A stretch of 20,029 bases of DNA from a virus: IMG/VR virus record IMGVR_UViG_3300022752_000494, positions 1-20,029 of that record. One strand, 5' to 3'. The notes under the pieces were generated by a model that saw only the letters and a list, made by a program, of their open reading frames with translations, was not told where the DNA came from and did not search any database. A program made the position numbers and the translations under genes. Position 1 is the stretch's first letter; the number at the start of each line of letters is the position of its first letter. This document shows positions 9-12,594 of this stretch, in pieces.

Positions 9-1943
9 GTGTACGGAATCCCGAAAAGTTCGCCTATTGTACGGCAGGACTTTGAAACCAAGCTACCCGAATTTAAGGTAGTGAACGGAAAGGATTACGT
101 AATGTATGGGGAGAGCAATCGTTACCCAGATTATTTGTTGGAAATGTACCAACGTAGCGCAAAGCATAACGCTATTGTGAACGGTAAAGTCAACTACATT
201 ACGGGTAAGGGATGGACGTATGAAGCGGATAAAGTACCGAGCGAAATGCTTGGTGAGTTGAACCGATTGATGGATAACCCGAACCCTTACGATGACTTGA
301 ACGATATTCTTTACAAGACCGCTTTGGACTTCGAAATTTTCAACGGCTTTGCCTTGGAAATTGTGTGGAATATGCACGGGAAAGTTAGCCAAATCGCACA
401 TAAAAACTTTGGTAACCTACGTCGCAACGTGGATGGAAGCAAGTTTTATTACGCTGATGAGTGGAAGGAGTTTGGCGAACCCGAAGGACTTACGGAATAT
501 ATGCCGTTTGATCCCGAAAAGCGGTTAGGTAAGCAACTATTCTATTACTGTTCTTACGCTCCGAGTGTGCGTTATTACCCTATCCCAGAATACTTGGGTG
601 CGCTTGCTTACATCGAAACCGATGCAAGGATAGCCAATTACCACGTGAATAATTTACGTAATGGTTTTCTTGGTGGTTTCCTTTTCAACTTCAACAACGG
701 AGTACCTTCCGATGAAGAGCAAAGGGAAATCAAACGTCAATTACAGAAGCAATTAAAAGGCGACGATGGGGAGCGTATCGTGGTGAACTTCAATGATAGT
801 GCTGATACGGGTTTAAAGATTGAGCCATTAAACGCTAACGACCTCGATAAGCAGTTTAATATTCTCAACGAAACCATCCAGCAAGAAATCTTTGTTGCTC
901 ACCGCGTAACCTCCCCGATGTTGTTTGGTGTACGTGTTAGCGGTCAACTTGGTGGCCGTTCAGAGTTGGTTGAAGCATACGAACTGTTTAAGGCGGTTTA
1001 TATTAACGACCGAGTTCAAAAGTTGGAAAAGGTGTTTAACTACATTTTTTCCTTCAATGGTTTGGGCGTGTTGGAAATCGAACCAACTGAACCGATCACA
1101 GAGCAGTTGAGTGAAGCTACATTATTGCAAATTGCAAGCCGTGCTGAACTACGTGCTATGATGGGATTGAAAGACGATACTGTAAGCGTGCCGAAAACAA
1201 CCGACATGATTCAAGCCCTTTCTCCATTGGTTGCGAATAAGGTGTTGGAGAAGTTAAGCGACCTCGAAATTAGACAGTTGGTTGGATTGGATTTAACCCA
1301 ACCTGAACAATCGCAAGCCTTCACTCACCACGATTTCCGTAAGGAAAAAGAAGAGTTAGCGTTGTTTCAAAAGTTTGGCCGTGACGCTTCCGAGTTTATT
1401 GAAGTAACACGTAGGCCCATGCGCTACGGGTTCGAGTTATTAGAGCAAGAATTTGCTTCCGAGTACGCAGAACTTGACGGAGATATTTTGAAGTTGATCG
1501 AGAAAGACCCAGCAATTACTTCGGATAAATTAGCCGAAAAGTTAGGCAAGGACATACAGCTAATTTCAGACCGTATCAGCGCACTTATTGAAGCGAAGGC
1601 TATCAATATACGTGGAGCGTTAAAAGAGCTTGGTGAGTCTGCAAAGGACTTTATTAAGCCACGCAATCCCGAAGGTGAGCCGTTGGTGCAAGTGATGTAT
1701 AAATACGACGTGCTACCGGAGTTCGGTCCTCAAAAGTTGATTGCAGGTAGCCGTGAATTTTGCTCGAAAATGATTGAACTTGGAAGGTATTACACCCGTC
1801 AAGACATTAACCAAATTTCAGACATTATGGGGTACTCGGTTTGGGAGCGTAAAGGCGGTTGGTATACAAAACCTGGCACTAACCAACACTACCCAACGTG
1901 TAGACATACTTGGATGCAAACCTTAGTAAAACCGAAAGCATGA
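9..1943 (+). CDS. Phage portal protein with C-terminal winged-helix-like and MuF-like segments
   Basis: Portal proteins form the dodecameric ring at the capsid vertex through which DNA is packaged. Roughly residues 1-400 read as a portal: an N-terminal region with YGESNRYPDYL, then a long helical core and a segment ending near VTSPMLFGVRVSGQLGGRSE. Residues about 489-537 look like a small winged-helix domain (DGDILKLIEKDP, then SDKLAEKLG). The last 90 residues carry SREFC, GYSVWERKGGWYTKPGT and CRHTW, resembling the end of Mu gpF-like minor head proteins. At 644 residues it is longer than a plain portal, which fits a fusion. The frame opens with GTG at 9 and stays open to the window edge, because the codon spanning the edge ends in TA and cannot be a stop. 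The true start may therefore lie outside the window. The ATG at 7 is out of frame. The next gene overlaps by ATGA. I am confident of the portal call and less so of the C-terminal domains. Confidence 0.82.
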   Translation: MYGIPKSSPIVRQDFETKLPEFKVVNGKDYVMYGESNRYPDYLLEMYQRSAKHNAIVNGKVNYITGKGWTYEADKVPSEMLGELNRLMDNPNPYDDLNDILYKTALDFEIFNGFALEIVWNMHGKVSQIAHKNFGNLRRNVDGSKFYYADEWKEFGEPEGLTEYMPFDPEKRLGKQLFYYCSYAPSVRYYPIPEYLGALAYIETDARIANYHVNNLRNGFLGGFLFNFNNGVPSDEEQREIKRQLQKQLKGDDGERIVVNFNDSADTGLKIEPLNANDLDKQFNILNETIQQEIFVAHRVTSPMLFGVRVSGQLGGRSELVEAYELFKAVYINDRVQKLEKVFNYIFSFNGLGVLEIEPTEPITEQLSEATLLQIASRAELRAMMGLKDDTVSVPKTTDMIQALSPLVANKVLEKLSDLEIRQLVGLDLTQPEQSQAFTHHDFRKEKEELALFQKFGRDASEFIEVTRRPMRYGFELLEQEFASEYAELDGDILKLIEKDPAITSDKLAEKLGKDIQLISDRISALIEAKAINIRGALKELGESAKDFIKPRNPEGEPLVQVMYKYDVLPEFGPQKLIAGSREFCSKMIELGRYYTRQDINQISDIMGYSVWERKGGWYTKPGTNQHYPTCRHTWMQTLVKPKA

Positions 1944-2521
1944 GCCAAAAAGCTTTATTCATAACCGAGAAGCAGTTAAAGGATGCTTCATTGATTAACG
2001 AGAATGTTTCTATGGTGAAGTTGCGCCCTACGGTTATTATGTGCCAAGAGATGCACATTCAACCGATATTAGGTAGCGACCTTTACAAAGAAATTGCTGA
2101 TCAAATCATTAACAATAATCTTACCCAAGAGAATGAAGACCTGCTTATTGACTACATTCAGCCATGTTTACAAATGTTTGTTCAAATGGAGTTCCCGATG
2201 GCCTTCGGGTTTCAGTTACGCAATAAGAATGTGGAACGTGGTACGGATCAAAACAGTACACAGGCCTCCATGAGTGAATTGCAAAGGTTGATTGATTACT
2301 ACAAATCGAAAGCGGAGTGGTATGCTGAAAGGATTACACGTTATATCTTAACAAATATTACCGACTTTCCTGCGTATCAATCACCAAGCGGACAAATCGA
2401 TACTATATTGCCGAACCGACGTAATTACACTGCGGGATTGGTGTTAGATAATTACGGTTGTTGTGGCGATTACGCAAAGCGTTACCAAGCAAACTATAAC
2501 CGAGATTGTGACTGTTATTAA
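1940..2521 (+). CDS. Probable head-tail connector (adaptor) protein
   Basis: This is a 193-residue protein starting at the ATG that overlaps the portal stop codon (ATGA). An in-frame TTG at 1910 gives a longer reading but lies inside the portal gene and is less likely. The pattern ITEKQL, NV..VKLRPTVIMCQEMHI, ILGSDLYKEI, IDYIQPCL, then a mid-protein helix with ADWYAER-like spacing (AEWYAERITRYIL), matches my recollection of adaptor-type proteins that follow portals in Bacteroidota phages. These are predicted to sit under the portal ring. The last 25 residues are rich in cysteine and tyrosine (CCGDY, CDCY), which is unusual for a connector and might bind metal. The position directly after the portal supports a neck role, but the function is inferred from context and pattern, not from a catalytic motif. 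Confidence 0.6.
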   Translation: MSQKALFITEKQLKDASLINENVSMVKLRPTVIMCQEMHIQPILGSDLYKEIADQIINNNLTQENEDLLIDYIQPCLQMFVQMEFPMAFGFQLRNKNVERGTDQNSTQASMSELQRLIDYYKSKAEWYAERITRYILTNITDFPAYQSPSGQIDTILPNRRNYTAGLVLDNYGCCGDYAKRYQANYNRDCDCY

Positions 2522-2526
2522 AATCT

Positions 2527-2649
2527 ATGAGTTACCACAAAAAGAACGTAGAAAAGTTACGGGTTTACCTATCAAAAGAACAAAATGCAAAGTTGGAACA
2601 CGATAAAAAGAAGCTTAAAGGAGTTCAGCGAGAGCCATCCACTCGTTAA
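2527..2649 (+). CDS. Small lysine-rich protein of 40 residues overlapping the next gene
   Basis: The ORF begins with ATG five bases after the connector stop codon and encodes 40 residues starting MSYHKKNVEKLRVYLSKEQ. It is basic and probably helical. Its last 65 bases overlap the next gene in another frame. The spacing suits a translated phage gene, since otherwise a 63-base gap would separate the connector from the next gene in a region with almost no gaps. No family is recognised. It could also be a chance ORF. Confidence 0.4.
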   Translation: MSYHKKNVEKLRVYLSKEQNAKLEHDKKKLKGVQREPSTR

Positions 2650-3400
2650 TTCGTTTGGTACGGGTAACATCCTTGACCCTGATAGCGCACAAATAACCAA
2701 CTTTGTTACTCCCGAAATCGATCGGGTGTATTACCCTTTGGTTTTCGCCACGTTGGACGGTGCAAGATTCGGTTCTAATTCGGCCACGTTCACGGTTGGA
2801 TTGGTGTTCATGGATAAAATTGAGGAAAGCCAAAAGGTTGCAGATCGTCCGACTGGTTCAAATGCTTTGAACTTCCAAACGCTTCAACCCGACGAGGTTA
2901 TGTCCGACATGACTCAACTGGCAGGGGATTTCATGATTAAATACCAACGGACTTTTGGCAATGACTTCGATATTTCGGTGGATGCTAACGTGGATTACTT
3001 CGTTGATAGGTTTGGCGATCGTGTTGCGGGATGTAGAGCGGTGCTATCGTTTAACGTTCCACTTGCTTTGAGCGTGTGTACCATTCCAACGGAAATGGAC
3101 CCTGACACGTGTTATTATGGTGGCGTTGAAGCCACTAATTTAATCGACCTTTACGACGGCGATACGTTAGCCGTTGCGATTGATAAACCGATAAACATTA
3201 TCTTTGATGGTGGAGCGGTGAGTAACTTATTCCTTTGGTTTGCCGTACCTTCCACTTATTCGTTCTCGCATTGGTATCGAAGCGCATTCGATCAAGGTTC
3301 ATTCGTGGATTTATTTGAGGTGTACGATACTCAGGACGGATACGATATTTACGTAACAAGTTGGCAAACGGAAGCGACCGTACAAATGACAATACAATGA
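2585..3400 (+). CDS. Virion structural protein, probable neck or tail completion protein
   Basis: This is a 271-residue protein. The N-terminal part (about 1-170) has FSESHPLVNSFGTGNI, VYYPLVFATL, TVGLVFMDK and a long alternating beta region ending in LSFNVPLALSVC. That order is typical of neck or tail-terminator-like proteins next to connectors in Bacteroidota phages. The C-terminal 90 residues form a second domain with LFLWFAVPSTYSFSHWY, resembling a beta-sandwich module found at the ends of tail proteins. There is no signal peptide and no membrane segment. It lies between the connector and the tail fibre, and its stop codon overlaps the fibre start (ATGA). A tail or neck role is inferred from position; the exact protein is uncertain. 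The ATG at 2585 is chosen because the recognisable pattern begins right after it. Confidence 0.5.
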   Translation: MQSWNTIKRSLKEFSESHPLVNSFGTGNILDPDSAQITNFVTPEIDRVYYPLVFATLDGARFGSNSATFTVGLVFMDKIEESQKVADRPTGSNALNFQTLQPDEVMSDMTQLAGDFMIKYQRTFGNDFDISVDANVDYFVDRFGDRVAGCRAVLSFNVPLALSVCTIPTEMDPDTCYYGGVEATNLIDLYDGDTLAVAIDKPINIIFDGGAVSNLFLWFAVPSTYSFSHWYRSAFDQGSFVDLFEVYDTQDGYDIYVTSWQTEATVQMTIQ

Positions 3401-4773
3401 TTAGATTAAGCGATAATTTAGAAATCAACAAACCCGCACCAGTTGATGATCGATTAGGTGTATTTGTTTCCACGGCCTCGGCTTTGAGTTCCATTGCAGA
3501 GGACCGACGTTATGTAGGGTTAACCGTTATTGTGGACGATGGGACCGGAGCGGAAGAGTATTGGTTCAAAGACGGTGTGGCCGATGGTGATTTGGAAGTA
3601 AAATCTACGGGTGGAACGCAAGTCAATTCAGATTGGAATGCCGTAAGCGGTGTTGCTGAAATCCTAAATAAACCAACCATCCCAAATGCTCAGGTTAATT
3701 CAGATTGGAACGCTGTAAATGGTGTTGCTGAAATTTTGAACAAACCAACCATTCCTACATCACTTCCACCAAATGGGAATGCCGGTGGGGATTTGCAAGG
3801 CACATATCCTAACCCAACAGTTCACAGGGTTCATGGGGTAGATTTTCAAAGTGGTACACCGCAAGCGGGTGATGTTTGGATTTATGGTGGCAATCCTGCA
3901 AAGTGGCAACATCAATCATTAACAAGTAGTGATTTACCAAGTTCTATTGATGCTACAAAGATTGCAAACGGAAACGTAAGCAATGCAGAATTTCAGTACC
4001 TTGACGGGGTAACCTCGGCAATTCAAACGCAATTAGATGCAAAAGCACCAATTGCTTCACCTACTTTTACGGGTACTGTTTCGGGTATTACCAAATCAAT
4101 GGTTGGACTTGGAAACGTTGATAATACGAGCGATGCAAATAAGCCAGTATCAACTGCCACACAAACTGCTTTAAATGCCAAGGAAGACACAATAACAGCA
4201 GGAACAACCTCACAATACTATCGAGGCGATAAAACGTTTCAAACGCTCGATAAAACGGCCGTAGGACTTGGAAACGTAGATAATACAAGCGATGCAAATA
4301 AGCCAATAAGCACGGCTACACAAACGGCTTTAAACCGAATTACAAGCCTTTTCCAAGACGTTAGTCAATTAAGCACTACATCAACTACTGCGGTAACTTT
4401 AACGACGTTTACGGTTGCTTCTGCAAACATTCCAGTCGGTGGTGTAATTCGTATTTCGGGAGTAATTGAGCGAACCGCAGGAACGGGAAATACAGCAGTT
4501 GGAATTAACGTTAATTCAGGCGGTGCGAGGTATTTGCAATCCTCAGGAACTAACTCACAATTTGAAATTCTTGTTTGCAAAACAACATCTACAAACGTTC
4601 GCTATGGATTGGGCGCATCGAATACAACGGGAAACTCATTTTCAGGGCACAATTCAACAACCATTTCAGTTGCACAAGATGGAAGCGGTAATTTTGCTAT
4701 TGCATTTCTTGGTTTAGTTGGAACGGCAGGGGCGACGTTAACTGTTCAATTTGTTAAAGGGAATCTGTTATGA
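3397..4773 (+). CDS. Tail fibre / receptor-binding protein
   Basis: This 458-residue protein is likely to recognise the host surface. An N-terminal part of about 70 residues (MIRLSDNLEI, VDDGTGAEEYWFKDG) probably anchors it to the tail. Then come repeats typical of trimeric fibre shafts: two copies of VNSDWNAV.GVAEILNKPTIP, a phage LxGxxLxGxYPNPTV-type stretch (GGDLQGTYPNPTVHRV), ASPTFTGTVSG, and two copies of GLGNVDNTSDANKP. The last 120 residues (from about SQLSTTSTTAVTLTTF) are beta-rich and full of Ser, Thr and Gly, fitting a jelly-roll-like tip. A TTG at 3361 gives 12 extra residues, but ATG 3397 overlaps the upstream stop codon and is preferred. The internal repeats make the gene prone to recombination, which is common in host-range genes. 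Confidence 0.85.
   Translation: MIRLSDNLEINKPAPVDDRLGVFVSTASALSSIAEDRRYVGLTVIVDDGTGAEEYWFKDGVADGDLEVKSTGGTQVNSDWNAVSGVAEILNKPTIPNAQVNSDWNAVNGVAEILNKPTIPTSLPPNGNAGGDLQGTYPNPTVHRVHGVDFQSGTPQAGDVWIYGGNPAKWQHQSLTSSDLPSSIDATKIANGNVSNAEFQYLDGVTSAIQTQLDAKAPIASPTFTGTVSGITKSMVGLGNVDNTSDANKPVSTATQTALNAKEDTITAGTTSQYYRGDKTFQTLDKTAVGLGNVDNTSDANKPISTATQTALNRITSLFQDVSQLSTTSTTAVTLTTFTVASANIPVGGVIRISGVIERTAGTGNTAVGINVNSGGARYLQSSGTNSQFEILVCKTTSTNVRYGLGASNTTGNSFSGHNSTTISVAQDGSGNFAIAFLGLVGTAGATLTVQFVKGNLL
3622..3755 (+). repeat. Two tandem 24-residue shaft repeats in the tail fibre
   Basis: Two copies, spaced 72 bases apart (starting at 3622 and 3694), encode VNSDWNAVsGVAEILNKPTIP and VNSDWNAVnGVAEILNKPTIP. Most DNA differences are silent third-position changes, which suggests an older duplication held by selection on the protein. 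Confidence 0.85.
4105..4334 (+). repeat. Two copies of a GLGNVDNTSDANKP fibre repeat
   Basis: The copies start near 4105 and 4264 (159 bases apart) and each run about 70 bases, encoding GLGNVDNTSDANKP followed by S/TATQTALN. The same motif occurs in many phage tail-fibre shafts, where it forms intertwined beta segments. Confidence 0.85.
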
Positions 4774-4907
4774 AGTATTTAGTTATTTATGATAACACCA
4801 ATCATTTCTTTGATGACTTTGAAACCGCAAAAGCGGAGTTCGAAGCGCATGGAGGTTTGTTTTTAGAAGAAAAAGCACCAAACGTATATGAAGCAGTTAC
4901 TACATGA
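4770..4907 (+). CDS. Small protein of 45 residues between fibre and holin
   Basis: The ATG at 4770 overlaps the stop codon of the tail fibre (ATGA), and the end overlaps the holin start by 20 bases. The product (MKYLVIYDNT, then FDDFETAKAEFEAHGG and YEAVTT) is soluble, mildly acidic and probably an alpha/beta fold. It has no recognised family. The neat overlaps at both ends support it as a real gene in the tail fibre-lysis operon, possibly a small fibre accessory protein. Confidence 0.6.
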   Translation: MKYLVIYDNTNHFFDDFETAKAEFEAHGGLFLEEKAPNVYEAVTT

Positions 4908-5187
4908 TTTAGGTATTAACCTCGGCTTGTCATTTGCAGGCTTTGCGGGTTCGCTCGTTATGATCGGAAAGAAAGAATTTTCGTGGAAGAAGGCGATGGT
5001 GAGTATTCCAAGCGGTGTATTTTCTGCAAACTACCTCACTCCTATTGTGGTGGAAGGTTTGAGGATGCAGGGCGGTTCAGCAGAGTACGGTATTGCCTTT
5101 ATCATGGGTTACCTTGGATTAAAAGGTACAGAAATTTTTGCAACTAAATTTATCACTAATGAAAAATCTAAAAAACCTACTGCCTAA
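4888..5187 (+). CDS. Phage holin-like membrane protein
   Basis: This 99-residue protein is probably inserted in the inner membrane and times lysis by forming lesions there. Segments of about 8-27 (LGINLGLSFAGFAGSLVMIG), about 38-58 (VSIPSGVFSANYLTPIVV) and about 68-88 (YGIAFIMGYLGLKG) are hydrophobic, giving two to three membrane spans. The SANYLTP motif and the closing aF.mGylGLKG pattern are typical of one phage holin family. The C-terminus is short and positively charged (NEKSKKPTA), as expected for a holin tail facing the cytoplasm. It follows the tail fibre and precedes a second small membrane protein. The endolysin lies 1.2 kb downstream, in a separate transcription unit. Confidence 0.72.
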   Translation: MKQLLHDLGINLGLSFAGFAGSLVMIGKKEFSWKKAMVSIPSGVFSANYLTPIVVEGLRMQGGSAEYGIAFIMGYLGLKGTEIFATKFITNEKSKKPTA

Positions 5188-5410
5188 AAAGGCAAACGAA
5201 ATGTCGATTTATGAAAGAGCGATGGCTGAAACACCACCATTTTTTAAGAAACTGCGCACTATTGGTATTGTGGTTGGTTTGGTCGGGGGTGCTTTGGCTA
5301 CTGCACCAGTTTCGCTCCCAGCGTCTATTGTAGCTTTGAGCGGTTATTTGATCACAGCCGGAACAATTATTACCACGGTTTCGCAAATTACTGTTGACGA
5401 AGGAAAATAA
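5159..5410 (+). CDS. Second small membrane protein of the lysis region
   Basis: The product has 83 residues when started at ATG 5159. An upstream in-frame ATG at 5138 and an internal ATG at 5201 are alternatives. A hydrophilic N-terminus with AMAETPPFFKKLRTIG is followed by a hydrophobic stretch (IVVGLVGGALATAP) and a second one (SIVALSGYLITAGTIITTVSQI), so two membrane helices are likely. Proteins with the TPPFFKK...G pattern next to holins are familiar from Bacteroidota phages. It may be a second holin, an antiholin or a spanin-like helper, but nothing in the sequence decides which. It overlaps the holin end by 29 bases and is the last gene before the terminator. Confidence 0.65.
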   Translation: MKNLKNLLPKKANEMSIYERAMAETPPFFKKLRTIGIVVGLVGGALATAPVSLPASIVALSGYLITAGTIITTVSQITVDEGK

Positions 5411-5423
5411 AGTCGTATATTTG
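5394..5423 (+). promoter_or_regulatory. Bacteroidota-type promoter upstream of a short leader or small RNA
   Basis: TTG at 5394-5396 and TATATTTG at 5416-5423 are separated by 19 bases, matching the -33/-7 layout of Bacteroidota housekeeping promoters. It lacks the GCACAATT extension of the other phage promoters. Transcription would start near 5430, only about 70 bases before a strong terminator. Confidence 0.5.
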
Positions 5424-5429
5424 TAGAAG

Positions 5430-5499
5430 ATAGCACGGTTTTCGTTGTTTTCGTAGTTTAATTTTTTGGTTAAACCCCTGAGAAATCGGGGGTTTTTTT
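5430..5499 (+). ncRNA. Candidate small RNA between promoter and terminator
   Basis: A promoter-like element ends at 5423 and a strong intrinsic terminator ends at 5499, with no ORF of useful size between them. The predicted transcript of about 70 nt contains two copies of GTTTTCGT near 5438-5454, a U-rich single-stranded stretch and the terminator hairpin. That is the general form of a bacterial small RNA. It could also be only the terminated 3' end of the holin operon. Confidence 0.35.
5472..5499 (+). terminator. Rho-independent terminator closing the virion/holin operon
   Basis: AAACCCCTGA (5472-5481) pairs over ten positions with TCGGGGGTTT (5486-5495), including one G-T wobble, around a GAAA tetraloop. 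It is followed by a T run to 5499. This separates the late structural/holin genes from the next unit. Confidence 0.92.
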
Positions 5500-5538
5500 A
5501 TGCCTTCAAAAAATAATTTCATTTTTTTTCTGAAAAAG

Positions 5539-5570
5539 TTTGCACAATTAAATTTTATTGCTTTACTTTG
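5539..5570 (+). promoter_or_regulatory. Phage promoter 1 of a shared class (extended -33 GTTTGCACAATT)
   Basis: TTTG at 5539-5542 is followed by CACAATTAAATTTTATT and a -7 element TTACTTTG at 5563-5570. The same GTTTGCACAATT...ATT...TTTGT arrangement recurs at 6866 and 12308. The leader is about 30 bases, A-rich (ACCAAAGAGAAACAAACC) and without Shine-Dalgarno sequence, leading to the ATG at 5607. Confidence 0.75.
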
Positions 5571-5606
5571 TAGAACCAAAGAGAAACAAACCAAAAAAAC
5601 AAAGCA

Positions 5607-5801
5607 ATGACAACAGTAATTATCAAAAACCGAGTGAACCATACCGAGCAAATCGAGCGGTTTACTTATTACATCGATGCGCTAACCTTCTTTTTTCATT
5701 GGTGCGCAAAACACGATTACGACTTTCAAACTAACTGGACGGGTTACACGACAACAGGTTTGAACGATTACCAAGTAAAACTAATTAAACCAAATCTTTA
5801 A
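5607..5801 (+). CDS. Small protein of unknown function, first gene of the endolysin operon
   Basis: This 64-residue protein (MTTVIIKNRV, then ERFTYYIDALTFFFHWCAKHDYDFQTNWTGYTT) is rich in aromatic residues but has no clear membrane helix. It is the first gene after a phage promoter, with the A-rich leader typical of the phylum just before the ATG. It has no recognised family. The next gene starts one base after the stop codon, so they are probably co-transcribed. Confidence 0.7.
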   Translation: MTTVIIKNRVNHTEQIERFTYYIDALTFFFHWCAKHDYDFQTNWTGYTTTGLNDYQVKLIKPNL

Positions 5802-5802
5802 T

Positions 5803-6183
5803 ATGAAAACAATCAACGACGAGATGTTTCCAGTTGACGCATTGCGCTTTTGGAAAGTAAAACCAAGCTATGACAAAACCTGCGTAGGTTGGGAAATCTT
5901 TATTGGCCACGCACACTCCGATAATATGTGCGACCCTTTAAGCCATTACATTTTTCAAGATGTTACTGAAATGTTCAAACACCTTCGAGGGTACATCGAT
6001 CACGAAGATCGCCACGTTGGGGAACTGCTTAACGAGGTAATCCGATGGGATATGAAGAACCCTGAACTATGCGTTACCGATGCAAGTTTCAGCGAGCAAA
6101 TTGGAATCGGTGTTGCGATTTCCTTTAAGCTTAATTTCAACACGGTAGAAAATTATTCAATCATATTTAGCTATTTCAAATAA
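5803..6183 (+). CDS. Hypothetical protein of 126 residues
   Basis: The product is a soluble protein with many aromatic, His and Asp residues (RFWKVKPSYDKTCVGWEIFIGHAHSD, YIDHEDRHVGELLNEVIRWD) and a beta-rich C-terminus (GIGVAISFKLNFNTVENYSIIFSYF). The histidines do not form a metal-site motif I recognise. It starts one base after the previous stop codon, and its own stop codon overlaps the next start (TAATG), so it belongs to the endolysin operon. No function is proposed. Confidence 0.7.
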   Translation: MKTINDEMFPVDALRFWKVKPSYDKTCVGWEIFIGHAHSDNMCDPLSHYIFQDVTEMFKHLRGYIDHEDRHVGELLNEVIRWDMKNPELCVTDASFSEQIGIGVAISFKLNFNTVENYSIIFSYFK

Positions 6184-6392
6184 TGCGAGAAATTAAACAA
6201 ATGAAACGGGGGCGAAAACCTGCTCGCCCCTTGGTTTCCACGGCCTTAGCGCAACGATGGGAAACAATCAGAAACGTACGGAAAATATCCGTTCATCAAT
6301 TACCAGTATCACCACCGACGTATCGAAAGGTAATTAACACGGGGTACTGCGATCAACAAACCTTGATTAAACTAACTAAATTTTTCTTGTAA
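6183..6392 (+). CDS. Small basic protein, possibly HTH DNA-binding
   Basis: The product has 69 residues. The N-terminus is strongly basic (KQMKRGRKPARP). The rest reads like a minimal Cro-type helix-turn-helix: LAQRWETIRNVRKISVHQLP, then SPPTYRKVINTGYCDQQTLIKLTKFFL, where TYRKV could be the recognition helix. Small regulators of this kind occur in Bacteroidota phages. Starts at 6183 (overlapping the previous stop codon) and 6201 are both possible. It precedes the endolysin gene by one base. A regulatory role is inferred from weak similarity. Confidence 0.6.
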   Translation: MREIKQMKRGRKPARPLVSTALAQRWETIRNVRKISVHQLPVSPPTYRKVINTGYCDQQTLIKLTKFFL

Positions 6393-6393
6393 T

Positions 6394-6861
6394 ATGCTTA
6401 CCACAAAACAAATAATTCAGAAATACGGGAAACCCGATGACGATGGTTCCGATTACTTGGTAACAATCAATCTACCCTACCCTATGCGGTTGGCCTGGGA
6501 TACCAAAACATCAATCAATAAGATGCGATGCCACCGGTTAATTGCAACAAATTTTCAAAACGTTTTCAAAGATTTGCTCACCCATTACGGGCTTGCAGAA
6601 CTTCAACGTCTTGGTATTGATTTATTCGGTGGTTGCTTTGCTTTCAGAAAAATGCGAGGCGGTAATGATTACTCCCGTCACTCATGGGGTATTGCTATTG
6701 ACCTTGACCCTGTTCGCAATGGATTAAAAACTTCATGGGCACGGGCGCAATTTTCAAAGGATGAGTACAAACCAATGGTTGATATTTTTTACAAGCATGG
6801 GTTTATCAACCTTGGCAAGGAAAAGAACTACGACGCTATGCACTTTGAAATTAAATCTTAA
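6394..6861 (+). CDS. M15-family peptidase endolysin (D-Ala-D-Ala carboxypeptidase-like)
   Basis: This enzyme likely cleaves peptide bonds in peptidoglycan at the end of infection. It has 155 residues, the normal size for a single-domain phage M15 (VanY/L-alanyl-D-glutamate peptidase-like) lysin. The zinc-binding set is visible: SRHSWGIAIDLDP supplies His96 and Asp103, and DAMHFEI supplies His150, matching SxHxxGxAxD and MHFE. FAFRKMRGG about 12 residues before the first His is the usual preceding strand. There is no signal peptide, so export would depend on the holin upstream. The first 60 residues are not diagnostic. It is the last gene before promoter 2. Confidence 0.88.
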   Translation: MLTTKQIIQKYGKPDDDGSDYLVTINLPYPMRLAWDTKTSINKMRCHRLIATNFQNVFKDLLTHYGLAELQRLGIDLFGGCFAFRKMRGGNDYSRHSWGIAIDLDPVRNGLKTSWARAQFSKDEYKPMVDIFYKHGFINLGKEKNYDAMHFEIKS

Positions 6862-6865
6862 AAAG

Positions 6866-6896
6866 TTTGCACAATTAATTTTCATTTGTATATTTG
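6866..6896 (+). promoter_or_regulatory. Phage promoter 2 of the shared class
   Basis: TTTG at 6866-6869, extended by CACAATTAATTTTCATT, then TATATTTG at 6889-6896 with 19 bases between. It overlaps the region just after the endolysin stop codon and sits 18 bases before the ATG of the ERF gene, with an A-rich leader GAACCAAAACAAAATT. Confidence 0.8.
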
Positions 6897-6913
6897 TGAA
6901 CCAAAACAAAATT

Positions 6914-7519
6914 ATGGAAACAATCAAAAACTTGGCGAAAGCTTTGGTTAAAGCAACCGCCCAAATCGAAGGTGCTTCAAAGGACAGTACCAACCCACAT
7001 TTCCGAAACAAGTACGCAGACCTTGCGAGTGTTACGGATGCGATCAAGAAACCGCTTAACGAGAACGGTTTGACGTACTCACAAATCATTCACCGCTTGG
7101 ATGGTGGAGTGGGTGTAGAAACGCTTATCATTCACGAATCGGGTGAAACCATGAGCAACGGCATTACCTTCGTTCCTGCGCCTAAAAACGATCCACACGG
7201 CTACGGTAGTGCGCTGACCTATGCTCGCCGTTACTCCCTTTCTGCTTGCTTCGGTGTTATTCAAGAAGACGACGATGCAAATGGTGCTACCAACCTACGT
7301 ACAACGGGCGATATTAACAAGGTTCAAAGCAAAAAGGAAGCCGCTCCAAAGTTCGCAAAGGCTAACGAACTGCAACCATTCACGGCTGAAAAGTACGCAA
7401 AGCTTTTGGAACTTCACGAAACCGACCCTGACTTATGCAAGAAGTTGGAATCGCATTACCGCATTACGTCTGAAATCAAGGCACAATTCAAGAAAGATAC
7501 CGGAAAGGATTGGAAATGA
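6914..7519 (+). CDS. erf: ERF-family single-strand DNA annealing protein (recombinase)
   Basis: ERF proteins bind single-stranded DNA and promote annealing during phage recombination and genome circularisation. The product has 201 residues. The family core is clear: NPHFRNKYADLASVTDAI (about 27-44), ETLIIHESGE (69-78), DPHGYGSALTYARRYSLSACFGV (93-115) and EDDDANG (118-124). The C-terminal 60 residues are charged and variable. An ORF reading back to 6761 is open, but ATG 6914 lies directly after promoter 2 and fits the family N-terminus. It is the first gene of a run of recombination and accessory genes, and the next ORF overlaps by ATGA. Confidence 0.92.
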   Translation: METIKNLAKALVKATAQIEGASKDSTNPHFRNKYADLASVTDAIKKPLNENGLTYSQIIHRLDGGVGVETLIIHESGETMSNGITFVPAPKNDPHGYGSALTYARRYSLSACFGVIQEDDDANGATNLRTTGDINKVQSKKEAAPKFAKANELQPFTAEKYAKLLELHETDPDLCKKLESHYRITSEIKAQFKKDTGKDWK

Positions 7520-7860
7520 CACACGACCAAAAATTAGAACTATTGAAGCACCTTTACCCGACTACGGGTAACCGTGAAATCGCAAAGCTTATCAATATAC
7601 ACTACACTACCGTACGTTACTATGGTGAAAAGTTCGGCCTTAAAAAGAATGAGGAACTACTCGCAGAGCAGAAAAAGGAAAGCCTTGGTAAGTCGTTGGA
7701 AGTAAGACGTGCGAGTGATTTACGGCATAAGCTTTTATCAGAAAAAACACTAAATTATTGGGAGCGTGTGAAGGAGTTTAAGCAAGATCAGCTACAAACA
7801 CACGGACGTAAGCACCCATTCTATCAATCAATCAAAAATAGCTTTTTCAATCATGGATAA
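7516..7860 (+). CDS. HTH DNA-binding protein
   Basis: The product has 114 residues, started at the ATG overlapping the erf stop codon (an ATG two codons earlier is possible). Residues about 3-35 (LELLKHLYPTTGNREIAKLINIHYTTVRYYGEKFGLKK) form a helix-turn-helix like those at the N-termini of phage HNH endonucleases, including the one at 8911 here. The rest is basic and helical, with KHPFYQSIKNSFFNHG at the end. There is no nuclease motif. It may be a transcription regulator or the detached DNA-binding half of a homing endonuclease. Confidence 0.7.
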   Translation: MTHDQKLELLKHLYPTTGNREIAKLINIHYTTVRYYGEKFGLKKNEELLAEQKKESLGKSLEVRRASDLRHKLLSEKTLNYWERVKEFKQDQLQTHGRKHPFYQSIKNSFFNHG

Positions 7861-8326
7861 TATCATTACCCAATCAAATAACTTACTTTCGTCTGTAACT
7901 GGACGGGAGCAAGTTGAACTGATGCACCAAGAGTTCCGGATTCAAATTGAAGATGGTAATATCAACCCGTTGGAGTTTGCAATCAAAGCACGGATGATTA
8001 TTAAGGCATTAGAACAGACTTTGAGCGATACCCAATACCTTGCAATAGGCGAACAAGAAAAGCACGGGAAAACGGCTGAAATGTTTGGAGCGGTGGCCAC
8101 GACTTCCGAAATGGGAGTTAAGTACGACTACGAAGGATGTAACGATATTGAATGGATTATTTTGAAGGAGAATGTTGAACGTGCAACCGAAATGCTGAAA
8201 GCACGTGAGAAGTGGTTGCGATCACTGACCAAGCCTGAAAACATTGTGGACGGTAACGGTGAAATTGTAACCATTACCCCACCAATCAAAAGAAGTACAA
8301 CAACCTTAAAAGTAACAATGAAATGA
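7853..8326 (+). CDS. Conserved phage protein of unknown function, recombination cluster
   Basis: The product has 157 residues, mostly helical. The pattern GVKYDYEGCNDIEW, LKAREKWLRSL, then IKRSTTTLKVTM at the end recalls proteins that lie next to recombination genes in many phages, but I cannot name a role. It overlaps the upstream gene by 8 bases and the next by 4. Its location between an ERF gene and small helical genes suggests a part in DNA recombination or replication; this is context only. Confidence 0.75.
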   Translation: MDNIITQSNNLLSSVTGREQVELMHQEFRIQIEDGNINPLEFAIKARMIIKALEQTLSDTQYLAIGEQEKHGKTAEMFGAVATTSEMGVKYDYEGCNDIEWIILKENVERATEMLKAREKWLRSLTKPENIVDGNGEIVTITPPIKRSTTTLKVTMK

Positions 8327-8595
8327 AACCAAATCCTCAACAACTAATCGACTTCATTCAAGGCATTAAATTAAAAGCTATGGAAGTACACTTAAACGCT
8401 GAATACACCGCAAAGAAACTTGACCTTTCAAGGGTTAGCCGTTTCGATATTTTGAACCAACGAATGCAACGGTTGTACCGATTGCGTTCCCAGTGCATCG
8501 AGCATAAAGACTTTTACAAGGCACTCCAAGCCATGCACCTGATTAACCGAGTTGGTTTTGAACTTTCCAAAACTTACAACTATACTGCACTATGA
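8323..8595 (+). CDS. Hypothetical helical protein of 90 residues
   Basis: The product is basic and almost fully helical (LIDFIQGIKLKAMEVHLNAEY, then RMQRLYRLRSQCIEHKDFYKALQAMHLINRVGFELSK). No family is recognised. ATGA overlaps at both ends place it in the erf operon. It could be a small DNA-associated protein. Confidence 0.7.
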   Translation: MKPNPQQLIDFIQGIKLKAMEVHLNAEYTAKKLDLSRVSRFDILNQRMQRLYRLRSQCIEHKDFYKALQAMHLINRVGFELSKTYNYTAL

Positions 8596-8960
8596 ATTAC
8601 CCCGATCCAACCAAAGAACAGTTAGCCATTACCCGTGCCGTGGTACTTATGCAAGCCTTAGCGGAAACCTTGGATGACTTGAAACGAACCAATGCCTACC
8701 GTCAATCTTTGAAGAACCGATTGAACTTATTAGAACATGACTTGTCTATTTACCTCAACACGCTTTCCGTAGCGTTTTGGGGTGAGGATGAGGAACTTAT
8801 GATGCAAATAAGCCGAGGTATTGATGCGGTTACGGGTGCGCTTGCAACGTGGCATCCGGCACAAATGGCCGTTCTGGAAGACGTATTAAATCAAATTGAA
8901 ACCCAATTCAATGAAGCAACGCAGATTGACGGAGGAACAGAAGAAGTACATCCTGAATAA
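8592..8960 (+). CDS. Hypothetical helical protein of 122 residues
   Basis: The product is helical and acidic (AVVLMQALAETLDDLKRTNAYRQSLKNRLNLLEHDLSIYL, then LMMQISRGIDAVTGAL), with a probable coiled-coil near residues 25-50. No family is recognised. Its last 50 bases overlap the HNH endonuclease gene in another frame, so the short C-terminus NEATQIDGGTEEVHPE may be a by-product of that gene inserting here rather than the original end. Confidence 0.7.
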   Translation: MNYPDPTKEQLAITRAVVLMQALAETLDDLKRTNAYRQSLKNRLNLLEHDLSIYLNTLSVAFWGEDEELMMQISRGIDAVTGALATWHPAQMAVLEDVLNQIETQFNEATQIDGGTEEVHPE

Positions 8961-9528
8961 TTACCCATTTCAATACTCCAAAGATATTGCAGATCACCTC
9001 GGATTTAATGTTTCAACTGTTTACAATTTTGCTCACCGAACGGACTTAAACAAAGATGCAAAATTTAGAAGTGAAGAATTAAAAAAGCAAGGGGATAGAT
9101 TAAGAGAAATTGGAAAGGTTGGAAGGTTTGCCAAAGGACGAAAGCCACACAATTACGGTAAAAAGATGGATGCAGAAACTTACGAAAAAGTTAAAGCAAC
9201 CATGTTTACAAAAGGATCGAAGCCACATAACTGGAAGCCTGATGGATCGGAGCGAGTTGATGTAGAAGGTTATACAATGATCAAAGTAAATGGCAAGTAT
9301 ATTCAAAAACACGTGTACCTTTGGAATCAAAAGCATGGGGAAGTACCGAGAGGATATGCGGTAATTTTCAAAGATAGAAACAACAAGAACCTAACTATTG
9401 AAAACCTTGAATTGGTTAGTCGCAAAGATTTGATGTTACGCAATACCATTCAACGATACGACCCCGAGTTACAATTTACAATGAAAGTTTTATCAAAATT
9501 AAAAAAACAAATAAATGCCAAAAAATAA
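8911..9528 (+). CDS. HNH homing-type endonuclease with N-terminal HTH
   Basis: The product has 205 residues from ATG 8911; a TTG at 8896 is a weaker option. Residues 7-48 form a helix-turn-helix (LTEEQKKYILNNYP, ADHLGFNVSTVYNFAHRTDL). Two short repeats with FxKGxKPHN (about 73-81 and 99-107) resemble NUMOD-type DNA-contact motifs. Residues 134-171 form the HNH core: KHVYLWNQKHGEVPRGY, then AVIFKDRNNKNLTIENLELVSR with Asp155, Asn160 and Asn165. Where classical members have VxHxDGN, this one has Phe153. The His may be supplied elsewhere or activity may be reduced. The gene is AT-richer than its neighbours and overlaps the upstream gene, which fits a selfish insertion. Confidence 0.8.
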   Translation: MKQRRLTEEQKKYILNNYPFQYSKDIADHLGFNVSTVYNFAHRTDLNKDAKFRSEELKKQGDRLREIGKVGRFAKGRKPHNYGKKMDAETYEKVKATMFTKGSKPHNWKPDGSERVDVEGYTMIKVNGKYIQKHVYLWNQKHGEVPRGYAVIFKDRNNKNLTIENLELVSRKDLMLRNTIQRYDPELQFTMKVLSKLKKQINAKK

Positions 9529-9751
9529 AATCGAAGATTTGAGAAATCATTTATTCTCAACACTGGAAGCTTTGTTAGATGAGGACAAACCGCTTGAATT
9601 AGATCGTGCCAAAGCTATTGCAGACGTGGCCCAGGTCATTGTAAATTCTGCAAAGGTAGAGGTTGACTATGTTAAGGCTACCGAAAGGAGCAGAGGAACG
9701 AGTGGTTTCTTTCCGGATAGCCCAAATGGAAGTTTATACTTAAATGAATAG
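9515..9751 (+). CDS. Conserved small phage protein, function unknown
   Basis: The product has 78 residues with a familiar phage pattern: IEDLRNHLFSTLEALLDED, LDRAKAIADVAQVIVNSAKVEVDYVKA. It is helical with a flexible, serine-rich tail. Such proteins are widespread in tailed phages of Gram-negative hosts and are of unknown role, often near DNA-binding genes. It overlaps the HNH gene by 14 bases. Confidence 0.75.
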   Translation: MPKNKIEDLRNHLFSTLEALLDEDKPLELDRAKAIADVAQVIVNSAKVEVDYVKATERSRGTSGFFPDSPNGSLYLNE

Positions 9752-9754
9752 AAT

Positions 9755-9964
9755 ATGAAATATCAGAAACCACAGAACAAACAGGACGTTGAAGCCTTAA
9801 AATGGAAAATGAGTTACTTAGAGAACCAACTAACGGGTGAGTTATGCGATGAAGAAATGATGCTACGTCAAGAGATCAGCGAAATTAAGCAACTCCTTCG
9901 ATCGGTTGAATACCCTGAACGTCCGACCGATTCAAGTTTTGAATGTTTTGGTTGTGGATCATAA
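9755..9964 (+). CDS. Small coiled-coil-like protein adjoining the attC-like array
   Basis: The product has 69 residues: a long charged helix (WKMSYLENQL, EMMLRQEISEIKQLLRSVEY) followed by a short tail with CFGCGS, which might bind metal. The family is unknown. Its TAA stop (9962-9964) falls inside the left core of the first attC-like site. The two cassette genes end in a similar place relative to their sites, so this could be the cargo of an older cassette. However, the base pattern expected at the start of such a cassette is not found upstream. Confidence 0.65.
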   Translation: MKYQKPQNKQDVEALKWKMSYLENQLTGELCDEEMMLRQEISEIKQLLRSVEYPERPTDSSFECFGCGS

Positions 9965-10056
9965 CGTTTTGCAGCTTGGCGAAGTATCCACCTGCACAAA
10001 TTTAATTATTAACCGAGAAGTATATGTGGCTATTTTGCCAAACTGCTGTTAGGTGC
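9957..10056 (+). repeat. attC-like recombination site 1
   Basis: This is an imperfect palindrome with integron attC layout. The left core ends in TAAC (to 9965), then comes a 5-base spacer GTTTT. The left arm 9971-9991 pairs with the right arm 10026-10046 over 21 positions (17 Watson-Crick, 2 G-T, 2 mismatches). One base then leads to GTTAGGTGC (10048-10056), which has the GTTRRRY core of integron sites. The loop of 34 bases holds AATTATTAACC (10004-10014). The left core is not complementary to the right core, as expected when the right core belongs to the next inserted cassette. Confidence 0.68.
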
Positions 10057-10354
10057 AGTGCTTCTCACAATTTGAAACAAAATGAACAAAATATTTATAT
10101 GTGTATTATTGCAAATTGTTCTTTTTATCCCATTCTATTTGGTTTGGAGGAATGATTGCAAAACAATAGGTAAAGACAACTTAGCAGTCAGTTTACAAGA
10201 ACGATTTTTGTACTGGCTTATATTTTGTCCAATTTGGTTGGCAGGTGTCTTGGATTAGCATTGCACCTAACGGTTTGCGGCTTGGCGCAGTGCCGCATAC
10301 ACTAAAATCAATTATTAACCACTGCACTCTCAGCGGCATTGCGCTAAACCGCTG
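10049..10354 (+). mobile_element. Integron-like gene cassette 1 (306 bp)
   Basis: If cut at G/TT as in integrons, the cassette runs from TTAGGTGCA (10049-10057) to the G before TTGGGCGCA. Its first nine bases are the exact reverse complement of TGCACCTAA (10262-10270), which opens its own attC-like site. That is the signature of a cassette circle inserted at one site. It holds one 58-residue ORF in the same direction as the phage genes and no promoter of its own. No integrase lies in the window. Confidence 0.65.
10082..10258 (+). CDS. Cassette 1 cargo: small two-helix membrane protein
   Basis: The product has 58 residues and was found by reading the intergenic block. Residues 3-22 (KIFICVLLQIVLFIPFYLVW) and 42-57 (FLYWLIFCPIWLAGVL) are strongly hydrophobic, joined by a short charged loop (RNDCKTIGKDN). 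It is therefore a two-span inner-membrane protein with both ends on the same side. The leader AAACAAA just before the ATG is also found before the cassette 2 gene. No family is recognised. Small membrane proteins are frequent as integron cargo and in phage superinfection exclusion, so an exclusion or toxin role is possible but unproven. Confidence 0.6.
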   Translation: MNKIFICVLLQIVLFIPFYLVWRNDCKTIGKDNLAVSLQERFLYWLIFCPIWLAGVLD

Positions 10355-10362
10355 TTGGGCGC
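10262..10362 (+). repeat. attC-like recombination site 2
   Basis: The left core GCACCTAAC (10263-10271) is followed by spacer GGTTT. The left arm GCGGCTTGGCGCAGTGCCGC (10277-10296) pairs with GCGGCATTGCGCTAAACCGC (10333-10352) over 20 positions (17 Watson-Crick, 2 G-T, 1 mismatch). One base then leads to GTTGGGCGC (10354-10362). Spacer lengths and the stem position of a C-A mismatch are the same as in site 1. The 36-base loop again holds AATTATTAACC (10310-10320). Confidence 0.72.
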
Positions 10363-10380
10363 AGTTAATCTTCAAACAAA

Positions 10381-10593
10381 ATGGATAAAAAGGAACAAGA
10401 ATTACAAGATATTGCAGAACAATTAATGCAAAGTGAAAATTTAGCGGCAAGCGTAGAGATACTTCGTCAATTTGCTGAAAAGTGTTGGCAGGAAGGTGCT
10501 TGTGAAGCGCAGAATGATGCCGCTAAATATATCAATGAACACACGGTAAACTATCGTGATATTCCGAATGTTCTATTTACGGGTCGCTTTTAA
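10381..10593 (+). CDS. Cassette 2 cargo: small helical soluble protein
   Basis: The product has 70 residues (MDKKEQELQDIAEQLMQSENLAASVEILRQFAEKCWQEG, then AAKYINEHTVNYRDIPNVLF). It is acidic and predicted helical for the first 50 residues, with no membrane segment and no recognised family. The ATG follows a leader AAACAAA shared with cassette 1, and lies 18-25 bases after the cassette start core. Expression would need read-through from the upstream phage operon, because no promoter is visible inside the cassette. Confidence 0.65.
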   Translation: MDKKEQELQDIAEQLMQSENLAASVEILRQFAEKCWQEGACEAQNDAAKYINEHTVNYRDIPNVLFTGRF

Positions 10594-10594
10594 T

Positions 10595-10619
10595 TGCGCC
10601 CAACTCATTTATTGGCGCA
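10595..10619 (+). repeat. Degenerate or minimal third attC-like end
   Basis: TGCGCCCAA (10595-10603) and TTGGCGCA (10612-10619) form an 8-bp stem with one bulged C around CTCATTTA. It has outer cores like the attC sites but lacks the inner arms and the AATTATTAACC loop. It may be a deleted attC, or may act as a weak hairpin after the cargo gene. Confidence 0.45.
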
Positions 10620-10626
10620 CATTTAT

Positions 10627-10657
10627 TTCGCTTATTTAAAAAATAGTGTTATATTTG
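10627..10657 (+). promoter_or_regulatory. Probable promoter for the replication-initiator gene
   Basis: TATATTTG at 10650-10657 is a perfect -7 element. The -33 region (TTTCG near 10626-10630) is weak, and the GCACAATT extension of the shared promoter class is absent. It lies just after the cassette array and about 105 bases before the next ATG, leaving a long structured leader. Confidence 0.5.
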
Positions 10658-10670
10658 AAGCAGAAACAAA

Positions 10671-10691
10671 AGCAAATTAGCGGATTTGCCT
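10671..10691. promoter_or_regulatory. Inverted repeat just downstream of the promoter, possible operator
   Basis: GCAAAT (10672-10677) and ATTTGC (10684-10689) are perfect inverted copies around TAGCGG, about 15 bases after the -7 element. The position suits a repressor site or a small 5' hairpin. Confidence 0.35.
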
Positions 10692-10707
10692 TTCAATAAA
10701 ACCTAAG

Positions 10708-10752
10708 AACCCTGCCTTGAACGTGTACCGCTATACCGTTCTTGGTGGGGTT
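10708..10752 (+). promoter_or_regulatory. Long leader hairpin before the replication-initiator gene
   Basis: AACCCTGCC (10708-10716) pairs with GGTGGGGTT (10744-10752), including two G-T pairs. Inside it, GAACG (10719-10723) pairs with CGTTC (10737-10741) and GTA with TAC. It ends eight bases before the ATG at 10761 and is followed by a loose T-rich stretch. It could be a weak terminator/attenuator or a translation control element. Confidence 0.5.
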
Positions 10753-10760
10753 TATTATTT

Positions 10761-11534
10761 ATGAACCTAATCGATTACAATTTTCGCCTGAATTCGATCA
10801 TTAAGGAAGGGATGTTAACGACAAACGAAATCGCTTTGATGTTTGTTATTATCAACCTACAAAACACGCTTAAATCGGATTTATTCGGTTTGCCTACCCG
10901 AACAACCTCGGCACATTTGAACCTATCCCATCCGACCTATTACCGTACTTTGGAAGGCTTACAAAACAAGGGATTGATAGCAATTTTAGAGCAAGGAAAG
11001 AAGAACCAAGCACCCATTATTCGAATCACATTCGATAAAAAAATTTTAGCGAATCCGTTTAGCATTTCACAATTCGAAACGAATACGATAAAAGAAAATG
11101 AACAAATGCTATCAAAAAATTTTATCGAATCCGTGCACATAAATAAGAAAGAAGAAAGAATCAAAAATAAAGAATCTAATAATAGTAGTAGTAGTAGATT
11201 TATTAAAGAGCCCTTTCAAAATTTGAAACCAAGTGACTGCAAAGGGTACATTAACGAGCAATTAGAACACCACATATTCAACCTCAAACAAGCAACCAAT
11301 TACACGGTAGAACAAATACGCTCGGCAGTCGATACCTTTGTGAACTATCAAGAACTTGAAAGCAAAATGTACCACTTCAAAAGCGATTCATTCAAACACT
11401 TTGCACACTGGATAAAACGCATTGACCTGAACAAGATCAACAAACCAAAAGAGCAAAAGCTAAACGCCAACCAAATGACCGACGACGAAATCGCAAAATG
11501 GGTGGTAGAAAAACGATACGGAAAACAACCTTAA
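10761..11534 (+). CDS. Winged-helix replication initiator-like protein (DnaD/phage replisome organiser type)
   Basis: The product has 257 residues. Residues about 14-95 form a winged helix (LTTNEIALMFVIINLQNTL, TRTTSAHLNLSHPTYYRTLEGLQNKGLIAI), as in phage replication initiators that bind the origin. A low-complexity linker (NKKEERIKNKESNNSSSSRF, about 127-147) joins a C-terminal helical domain (VEQIRSAVDTFVNYQELE, FKHFAHWIKRIDL). The closing NQMTDDEIAKWVVEKRYG is a typical short tail of DnaD/replication-O-type proteins. The next gene follows ten bases later. The replication role is inferred from domain order and neighbours. Confidence 0.68.
   Translation: MNLIDYNFRLNSIIKEGMLTTNEIALMFVIINLQNTLKSDLFGLPTRTTSAHLNLSHPTYYRTLEGLQNKGLIAILEQGKKNQAPIIRITFDKKILANPFSISQFETNTIKENEQMLSKNFIESVHINKKEERIKNKESNNSSSSRFIKEPFQNLKPSDCKGYINEQLEHHIFNLKQATNYTVEQIRSAVDTFVNYQELESKMYHFKSDSFKHFAHWIKRIDLNKINKPKEQKLNANQMTDDEIAKWVVEKRYGKQP
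11183..11197 (+). repeat. TAG trinucleotide run in the initiator linker
   Basis: Five TAG units encode part of the Asn/Ser linker. A whole-unit change would only alter linker length and would not shift the frame. Confidence 0.8.
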
Positions 11535-11544
11535 AAAAAACGAT

Positions 11545-12300: not shown

Positions 12301-12307
12301 AAATAAG

Positions 12308-12337
12308 TTGCACAATTCGATTTCATTACTATCTTTG
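12308..12337 (+). promoter_or_regulatory. Phage promoter 3 of the shared class
   Basis: TTG at 12308-12310 is extended by CACAATTCGATTTCATT, then TATCTTTG at 12330-12337 with 19 bases between. The leader (ACCAAAAAACAAACTT) is A-rich and the ATG at 12358 follows about 20 bases later. Confidence 0.78.
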
Positions 12338-12357
12338 TAATACCAAAAAACAAACTT

Positions 12358-12594
12358 ATGAACTTAACAGATTGGCTTACGCTCGAAACCGAAGACGGGG
12401 ATATTGAATTTAAAGTCCTTGTTGATACCGAAGATCCACACGATTGGGAGATTCTCGAAGTAAGACGCAACGGTGAACCCTACGAACAAAACGAAGACGA
12501 ACATTCCGACATGGTAGAAATGGCCGAAGAATGGGCAAGGGATGCGGAGCAGAATTATTTCGACGATATGCGTGAAATGTTCAACGATGATTAA
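12358..12594 (+). CDS. Very acidic small protein, possible DNA mimic
   Basis: The product has 78 residues with 28 Asp/Glu and only 5 Lys/Arg, a net charge near -23 (for example LETEDGDIEF, NEDEHSDMVEMAEEWARDAEQN, YFDDMREMFNDD). It is the first gene after a strong phage promoter, so it is likely made early and in quantity. Small, strongly acidic early phage proteins are sometimes DNA mimics that block restriction or other DNA-binding enzymes. That is inference; no family is recognised. It overlaps the next gene by eight bases. Confidence 0.72.
   Translation: MNLTDWLTLETEDGDIEFKVLVDTEDPHDWEILEVRRNGEPYEQNEDEHSDMVEMAEEWARDAEQNYFDDMREMFNDD

Follow-up and report, generated by a model that had tools for sequence, protein, structure and literature searches.

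A candidate gene for a trans-acting antisense small RNA downstream of the holin in a putative Bacteroidota phage

The window, by which we mean the whole stretch of DNA analysed here, is the 20,029-base virus record IMGVR_UViG_3300022752_000494 (positions 1 to 20,029), in whose ORF list every open reading frame longer than 116 aa lies on the + strand; a few of the window ORFs that we name are shorter than this. Working along that strand, we see genes for a portal protein, a tail-fibre-like protein and a holin, followed by a second small ORF (5159-5410), the element that is the subject of this study, ORFs 5607, 5803 and 6183, an endolysin, an ERF recombinase, a set of DNA-metabolism genes and the large terminase (Table 1). 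Both matches to ERF (PF04404 and phrog_2324) run from one codon upstream; ORF5803 has no Pfam or PHROGs match, and ORF12358 has none in PHROGs. The gene slot at 5607-5801, behind the second promoter, is variable among close relatives and its upstream flank is conserved, as might be expected of a cargo (moron-like) slot. Further along, positions 14719-15231 weakly match a family of RNA polymerase sigma factors (phrog_1740, E 0.0012), and part of the gene set could be under the control of a phage sigma factor.

Among phage records, the best relative of the large terminase (54% identity) is found in an unannotated faecal record and the next (~40%) in Phocaeicola phages; together with the type of promoter described below, these relatives point to a host among the Bacteroidota. 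Positions 4800-6300 gave no DNA match in the phage collection, the 12 gaps examined in Phocaeicola phage BV674P5 held no -7 box/terminator pair, and the 82 pattern matches obtained with the protein encoded at 1943-2503 in the genome collection included no confirmed relative.

Table 1. Features of the window that bear on the predicted small RNA and its candidate targets.
Feature	Positions	Strand	Details
Holin	4888-5187	+	phrog_2359
Second small ORF after the holin	5159-5410	+	From the ORF list
-33 element TTG	5394-5396	+	Inside the last codons of ORF 5159-5410
-7 element TATATTTG	5416-5423	+	Consensus TAHHTTTG; 19 bases after the TTG
Predicted 72-nt small RNA	5428-5499	+	Start from the -7 geometry; end at the terminator T run
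GUUGUUUUC segment	5444-5452	+	Predicted partner of the start codon and opening codons of targets; no variation at its 9 positions (9/9) in clades I and II
UUUUGGUU anchor	5464-5471	+	Predicted partner of AACCAAAA at the mRNA 5' end of targets
Intrinsic terminator stem-loop	5472-5495	+	10 pairs, GAAA loop; T run to 5499
Second promoter, TTTGCACAATTAA ... TTACTTTG	5539-5570	+	-7 box one base off consensus; predicted mRNA start ACCAAAG at 5575
ORF5607, variable first gene behind promoter 2	5607-5801	+	Predicted target start; duplex -23.0
ORF5803, family of ~125 aa	5803-6183	+	Predicted target start, from complementarity
Endolysin	6394-6861	+	M15 peptidase family; phrog_17001 endolysin
ERF operon promoter, TTTGCACAATTAA ... 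TATATTTG	6866-6896	+	mRNA start about 6899-6901 (AACCAAAA)
ERF leader and start region	6899-6931	+	Main predicted pairing site; duplex -24.9; 2/1000 dinucleotide shuffles as good
ERF-family ssDNA-annealing protein gene	6914-7519	+	PF04404, E 3.5e-24; phrog_2324
Third -33/-7 promoter of this type	12308-12337	+	Leader ACCAAAAAACAAACTTATG
ORF12358, first gene behind the third promoter	12358-12594	+	Predicted target
Large terminase	17391-18551	+	

The original prediction described a TTG, a spacer of 19 bases and a TATATTTG box, followed by a ten-pair terminator with a GAAA loop, and these signals are indeed present, at 5394-5423 and 5472-5499. The consensus reported for Flavobacterium/Bacteroidota sigma-A promoters comprises a -7 box TAHHTTTG (H being any base but G) and a -33 element TTTG (PMC6847099). 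With its TTG preceded by G, the element matches three of the four -33 bases, and the pair of signals qualifies as a predicted promoter of the Bacteroidota sigma-A type. As the G of the -7 box is placed at -5 in Flavobacterium promoters (PMC6847099), transcription would begin at about 5428 and yield an RNA of 72 nt, a small correction to the start near 5430 and the length of ~70 nt first put forward. The accompanying claim that no ORF lies between promoter and terminator holds for the predicted RNA, which contains neither ATG nor GTG. The -33 element itself falls within the end of ORF 5159-5410. A peptide product of the element has been rejected for want of a usable frame, the two TTG codons of the RNA opening frames of 3 and 16 codons; indels cross a TTG-initiated ORF on the minus strand (5388-5651) in relatives. 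Rfam 15 gives no match in the window at or above the gathering cut-off, with sub-threshold matches to the rimP leader and BSnc120 lying at 5449-5528 and 5454-5517.

Searching both strands of the window for a TAHHTTTG box that has, no more than 115 bases on, a stretch folding below -9 kcal/mol and a T run gives a single instance, at 5394-5499. The pattern TTG-N18..20-TANNTTTG is found three times on the + strand (5394, 6867 and 12308) and never on the - strand, against 0.76 occurrences per strand in dinucleotide shuffles. Because a second promoter signal lies directly downstream, at 5540, the element looks like a transcription unit of its own rather than the leader of the endolysin unit. In related loci, the leaders behind TTGCA[CT]AATTA promoters contain ACCAAA (promoter listing). 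A promoter family with the TTTGCACAATTAA box recurs across many of these loci (in the window at 5539-5575 and 6866-6901); besides marking the -33 region, the box may be a binding site for a phage regulator.

The holin search returned 47 related loci. Counting the window as well, the limits of the element could be set in 42 of 48 sequences, which fall into clades I, II and III (30, 7 and 5 sequences); five others (L018, L033, L045, L047 and L049) break off ahead of the element or inside it, and L042 carries a clade III-like version. Searches with ERF and the protein encoded at 1943-2503 added clade IV (L131, L138 and L172) and clade V (L189, L192 and L193), as well as L136, in which the ERF gene is present and the sequence begins 987 bases before it, short of the small-RNA locus. 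Two of the loci, L020 and L039, lie on one contig (IMGVR_UViG_3300042868_005071; 41,149 bases) as diverged copies of the phage region, at 251-12547 and 29856-41149; this is perhaps an assembly join of two related phages, or a pair of tandem prophages.

The terminator lies downstream of the stop codon of the same small gene in 39 of 39 distinct sequences (from a set of 128 loci in which many repeat the same contig), with a stem sequence that varies between clades. A TAHHTTTG box precedes the RNA in 35 of these 39, and TAHHTTTA in the other four, all of clade II; a TAATTTTG inside the clade II RNA of four sequences is not a promoter and is excluded from the count. Promoter, 5' segment and terminator thus recur downstream of the same gene in five clades, which favours the small-RNA interpretation with which the work began. 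Within clade I, the -7 box reads TATATTTG, TATCTTTG or TAACTTTG: six of eight positions are invariant, and the two that vary are the H positions left free by the Flavobacterium consensus (PMC6847099), where G never appears. The -33 TTGAC has a consensus identity of 0.99 in 29 clade I relatives, which is partly explained by coding, and the TTG is lost in L025. In clade II the box ends in TTTA, not TTTG, in five of seven loci (four distinct sequences); in clade III it sits at another position, still just before the hairpin.

Within the predicted RNA, GTTGTTTTC is invariant at 9/9 positions in the 29 clade I relatives, and the conservation of its other parts is 0.91-1.00; four-fold silent sites of the holin gene score 0.77. 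The corresponding values in the seven clade II sequences are 0.90-1.00 and 0.82. The sequence before the terminator is therefore conserved along with it, and not, as the original prediction had allowed for its own refutation, the terminator alone. Elsewhere in the intergenic region, conservation in clade I is for the most part about as high (0.95 behind the terminator, 0.90 in promoter 2 and 0.82 in the promoter 2 leader), so that conservation by itself is not specific to the RNA.

A scan of the viral collection with a pattern derived from the RNA returned 69 stretches. Those with both the -7 box and the terminator are all at this same locus, and further copies of the element elsewhere were accordingly dropped as an idea. 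Among the 27 distinct matches outside the locus, 18 lie opposite an ATG that opens at least 40 codons; it is this that suggests the RNA as an anti-start sequence.

We ranked all 38 ATG start sites in the window by predicted pairing with the RNA, with Z taken from shuffled RNA. The best-paired starts are those of ERF (6914; Z -4.23), ORF5607 (-3.84), ORF12358 (-3.08) and ORF5803 (-2.48), followed by 14421 (-2.20), 12904 (-2.17) and 16015 (-2.12), these last three lacking an ACCAAA promoter. Ranks 1, 2 and 3 of 38 are thus held by the first genes behind the ACCAAA promoters at 6867, 5540 and 12308, an outcome with a chance of 1 in 8436. Pairing is no better than with shuffled RNA at the holin start (4888; Z +1.56), at that of the endolysin (6394; -0.06) or at that of ORF 2585 in the late block (+1.01), and we have dropped the earlier suggestion that the RNA acts on lysis or late mRNAs; complementarity to start regions instead predicts targets among phage genes outside the lysis/late block. 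When the 72-nt RNA is cofolded with bases 1-71 of the ERF mRNA, the energy is -49.0 kcal/mol, as compared with -19.5 and -10.1 for the two alone; the duplex spans the leader and start codon, and the terminator is left intact. ERF lies 1.4 kb and ORF12358 6.9 kb from the element, which shares its strand with the predicted targets and pairs with them imperfectly; it is not, in these respects, a cis-encoded antisense RNA of the OOP/sar type.

The ERF pairing extends to related loci. We took 18 loci for a whole-locus scan and 20 for a reverse scan, chosen for distinct sequence from the delimited 42 of 48, the reverse scan also including two loci of clade IV; ERF was scored in 17 of the former, L028 having no ERF in the locus. 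In 12 of the 17 (with a tie in L017), no scan window on either strand is better than the ERF start, and the scan windows that beat it elsewhere number 7 of 9926 in the window, 4 in L011, 16 in L019, 33 in L032 and 38 in L040. Conversely, in 15 of 20 loci the ERF start finds its best + strand partner in the RNA; other + strand sites appear as partner in L017, L030 and L036 (one each), L138 (two) and L131 (thirteen). Minus-strand segments at least as good as the RNA were found for the ERF start in 15 of 20 loci, and those that were placed lie opposite other ACCAAA leaders (e.g. window 5779; L029 6709).

Measured as the number of shuffles per 1000 that do as well, the ERF pairing scores 2 in the window, 1-44 across clade I (worst in L008), 10-47 in clade II and 0 in clade III (four loci); in clade IV it is weak (65 in L131, 19 in L138), and in clade V it lacks significance (121 and 120). 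The ORF5803 family, whose members are 85% identical within clade I and 30-42% identical between clades, gives 18 in the window, 1 in each of L005 and L016, 10 in L030, 19 in L027, 1 in L040, 0 in L029, 10 in L041 and 12 in both clade IV loci; L042 gives 6, and for the first operon gene of clade V the values are 35 (L189), 4 (L193) and, not significantly, 117 (L192). Combining one locus per clade by Fisher's method (window, L030, L029, L131 and L189) gives 7e-6 for ERF and 1e-6 for ORF5803/first operon gene, values that are indicative only, as the clades share ancestry. The start regions of these phages are A-rich and a U-rich RNA will fit a number of them; the shuffles control for composition, not for shared ancestry. 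A conserved segment is, then, complementary to start regions of mRNAs encoded elsewhere, weakly so in clade IV and without significance for ERF in clade V.

In two clades the complementarity is specific to the phage's own mRNAs. The clade III RNA binds its own ERF leader at -21.7 kcal/mol, compared with -8.9 to -11.5 for the leaders of clades I and II, corresponding to Z of -6.2 for its own and at best -2.0 for the remaining leaders; for ORF5803 the values are -3.6 versus -1.4 or weaker. The clade V RNA (L193) reaches Z -3.3 on its own first operon gene versus -1.6 or weaker elsewhere, with the anchor pairing to the first gene of the next operon changed on both partners (UGUUUUUGAUUG with CAAUCAAAAACA; L189 and L193). 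For ERF, the clade III leader suits the clade V RNA better (Z -2.5) than the leader of its own clade (-1.3), and in the clade V whole-locus scan neither ERF nor the first operon gene is among the eight best sites. The RNAs of clades I, II and IV fit each other's targets about as well as their own.

We consider it probable, from these signals and complementarities, that in this element a Bacteroidota phage encodes a trans-acting antisense small RNA, which would block translation of the phage's own genes. Host polymerase of the sigma-A type would start at about 5428 and stop at the 5472-5499 terminator; the UUUUGGUU anchor, just before the terminator, would pair with ACCAAA at the 5' end of phage mRNAs, and the segment upstream of it, predicted to lie in a hairpin loop in clades II and III, would pair across the start codon and first codons, such that the short leader and the AUG would both lie within the duplex. 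Bacteroidota mRNAs are described as lacking a Shine-Dalgarno sequence, initiation being tuned by structure around an A-rich start and working best if this is unpaired (PMC6847099); a duplex over leader and start should therefore block translation, here of the ERF recombinase, the ORF5803 family and other genes with an ACCAAA leader. From their kind (recombination, DNA metabolism) these are presumably early genes, and the likely purpose would be to limit them or shut them off. As to timing, the position of the element behind the lysis genes would be compatible with action from the first minutes, shaping a pulse, as well as with a late shut-off, because this terminator would also stop a late mRNA.

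A broader proposal, towards which we are divided and slightly on the side of doubt, is that of a phage-wide RNA off-switch, in which one small RNA, made up of an anti-tag and an anti-start-codon segment, would silence all ACCAAA-tagged mRNAs. One promoter class would give mRNAs with the common tag, the small RNA would be encoded at the end of the lysis cassette, and tag and anti-tag would co-evolve (ACCAAA/UUUGGU as against AUCAAAAACA/UGUUUUUGAU in clade V); a switch of this design would work in hosts without Shine-Dalgarno signals.

Other readings of the locus have to be weighed against the small-RNA gene. The pairing segment could be the 3' end of a long late transcript that runs through the lysis genes and silences other genes when late transcription dominates, with no separate small RNA being made. 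The lysis genes do immediately precede the element on its strand, and their transcript would stop at this terminator; five of the seven clade II loci keep the pairing sequence with an altered -7 box; against this, TAHHTTTG is kept in 35 of 39 distinct sequences despite lying outside the ORF, varies in clade I only at its free positions and, in clade III, has another place that is still just before the hairpin. We judge the tail unlikely. The segment could also act only in cis, folding in read-through transcripts onto a start in the next operon and blocking its translation until promoter 2 is used. Such insulation would explain why a gene of the downstream operon (the first gene or the ORF5803 family) is among the best-paired starts in six loci, and why at most 35 of 1000 shuffles do as well in 10 of 10 ORF5803-family loci and in L042, L189 and L193 (117 in L192); the terminator, however, stands between the two halves, so that few read-through RNAs are expected, a promoter of its own would be superfluous, and in the window the distant ERF and ORF12358 starts pair as well as or better than ORF5803. 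We regard insulation as very unlikely.

The element might also be nothing but the terminator of the late operon next to the upstream region of promoter 2, with a chance promoter and a complementarity that reflects U-rich sequence meeting A-rich leaders. Start regions in Bacteroidota are reported to be A-rich (PMC6847099) and the whole intergenic stretch is conserved, both of which suit this account; yet dinucleotide shuffles of the RNA are rarely as good (2/1000 for ERF in the window and 0/1000 in clade III), the pairing segment is invariant where silent sites change, and the pairings of clades III and V are clade-specific, leaving coincidence an improbable explanation. That same fit of the clade III and V RNAs to their phage's own leaders speaks against host mRNAs with A-rich starts as the main targets, phage genes being hit as a by-product, which we find barely credible even though the 18 of 27 outside pattern matches opposite an ATG of at least 40 codons imply that many starts could be bound.

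If the small-RNA gene is the right reading, it would provide a small RNA with named targets and with pairing predictions precise enough for mutation and compensating mutation, and would suggest that one RNA can silence several genes that lack a Shine-Dalgarno sequence by matching a common leader and an A-rich start. No small RNA encoded by a Bacteroidota phage is among the matches listed in the open-access literature. The phage small RNAs 24B_1, PreS and VpdS belong to hosts among the Proteobacteria. In the main text of one review of phage small RNAs, the strings 'Bacteroid' and 'Flavobacter' are both absent (PMC12197685). Antisense RNAs acting on phage genes and trans-acting phage RNAs are already known, and it is the case of a Bacteroidota phage that would be new.

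By description rather than by sequence, the predicted RNA resembles 24B_1, PreS and VpdS, phage RNAs whose targets are encoded at other sites: the phage gene d_ant is the proposed target of 24B_1, VpdS acts on mRNAs of both phage and host, and PreS on host dnaN, all three being tied to Hfq (PMC12197685). Compared in the same way, it is like Rfp18 of Flavobacterium psychrophilum, a Bacteroidota small RNA with predicted mRNA pairing; unlike the phage element, Rfp18 is chromosomal, its deletion lowered two metalloprotease mRNAs, and its pairing is predicted in an operon intergenic region (PMC9723704). The antisense RNAs sar of phage P22 and OOP and aQ of phage lambda are each directed at one phage gene, sar interfering with translation initiation of ant (PMC12197685). 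With these the element would have in common a short phage RNA with its own promoter that pairs with phage mRNA and lowers its expression, as is predicted here; it differs from them in being encoded away from its predicted targets, in its two-part, imperfect pairing, and in addressing several genes through a common leader.
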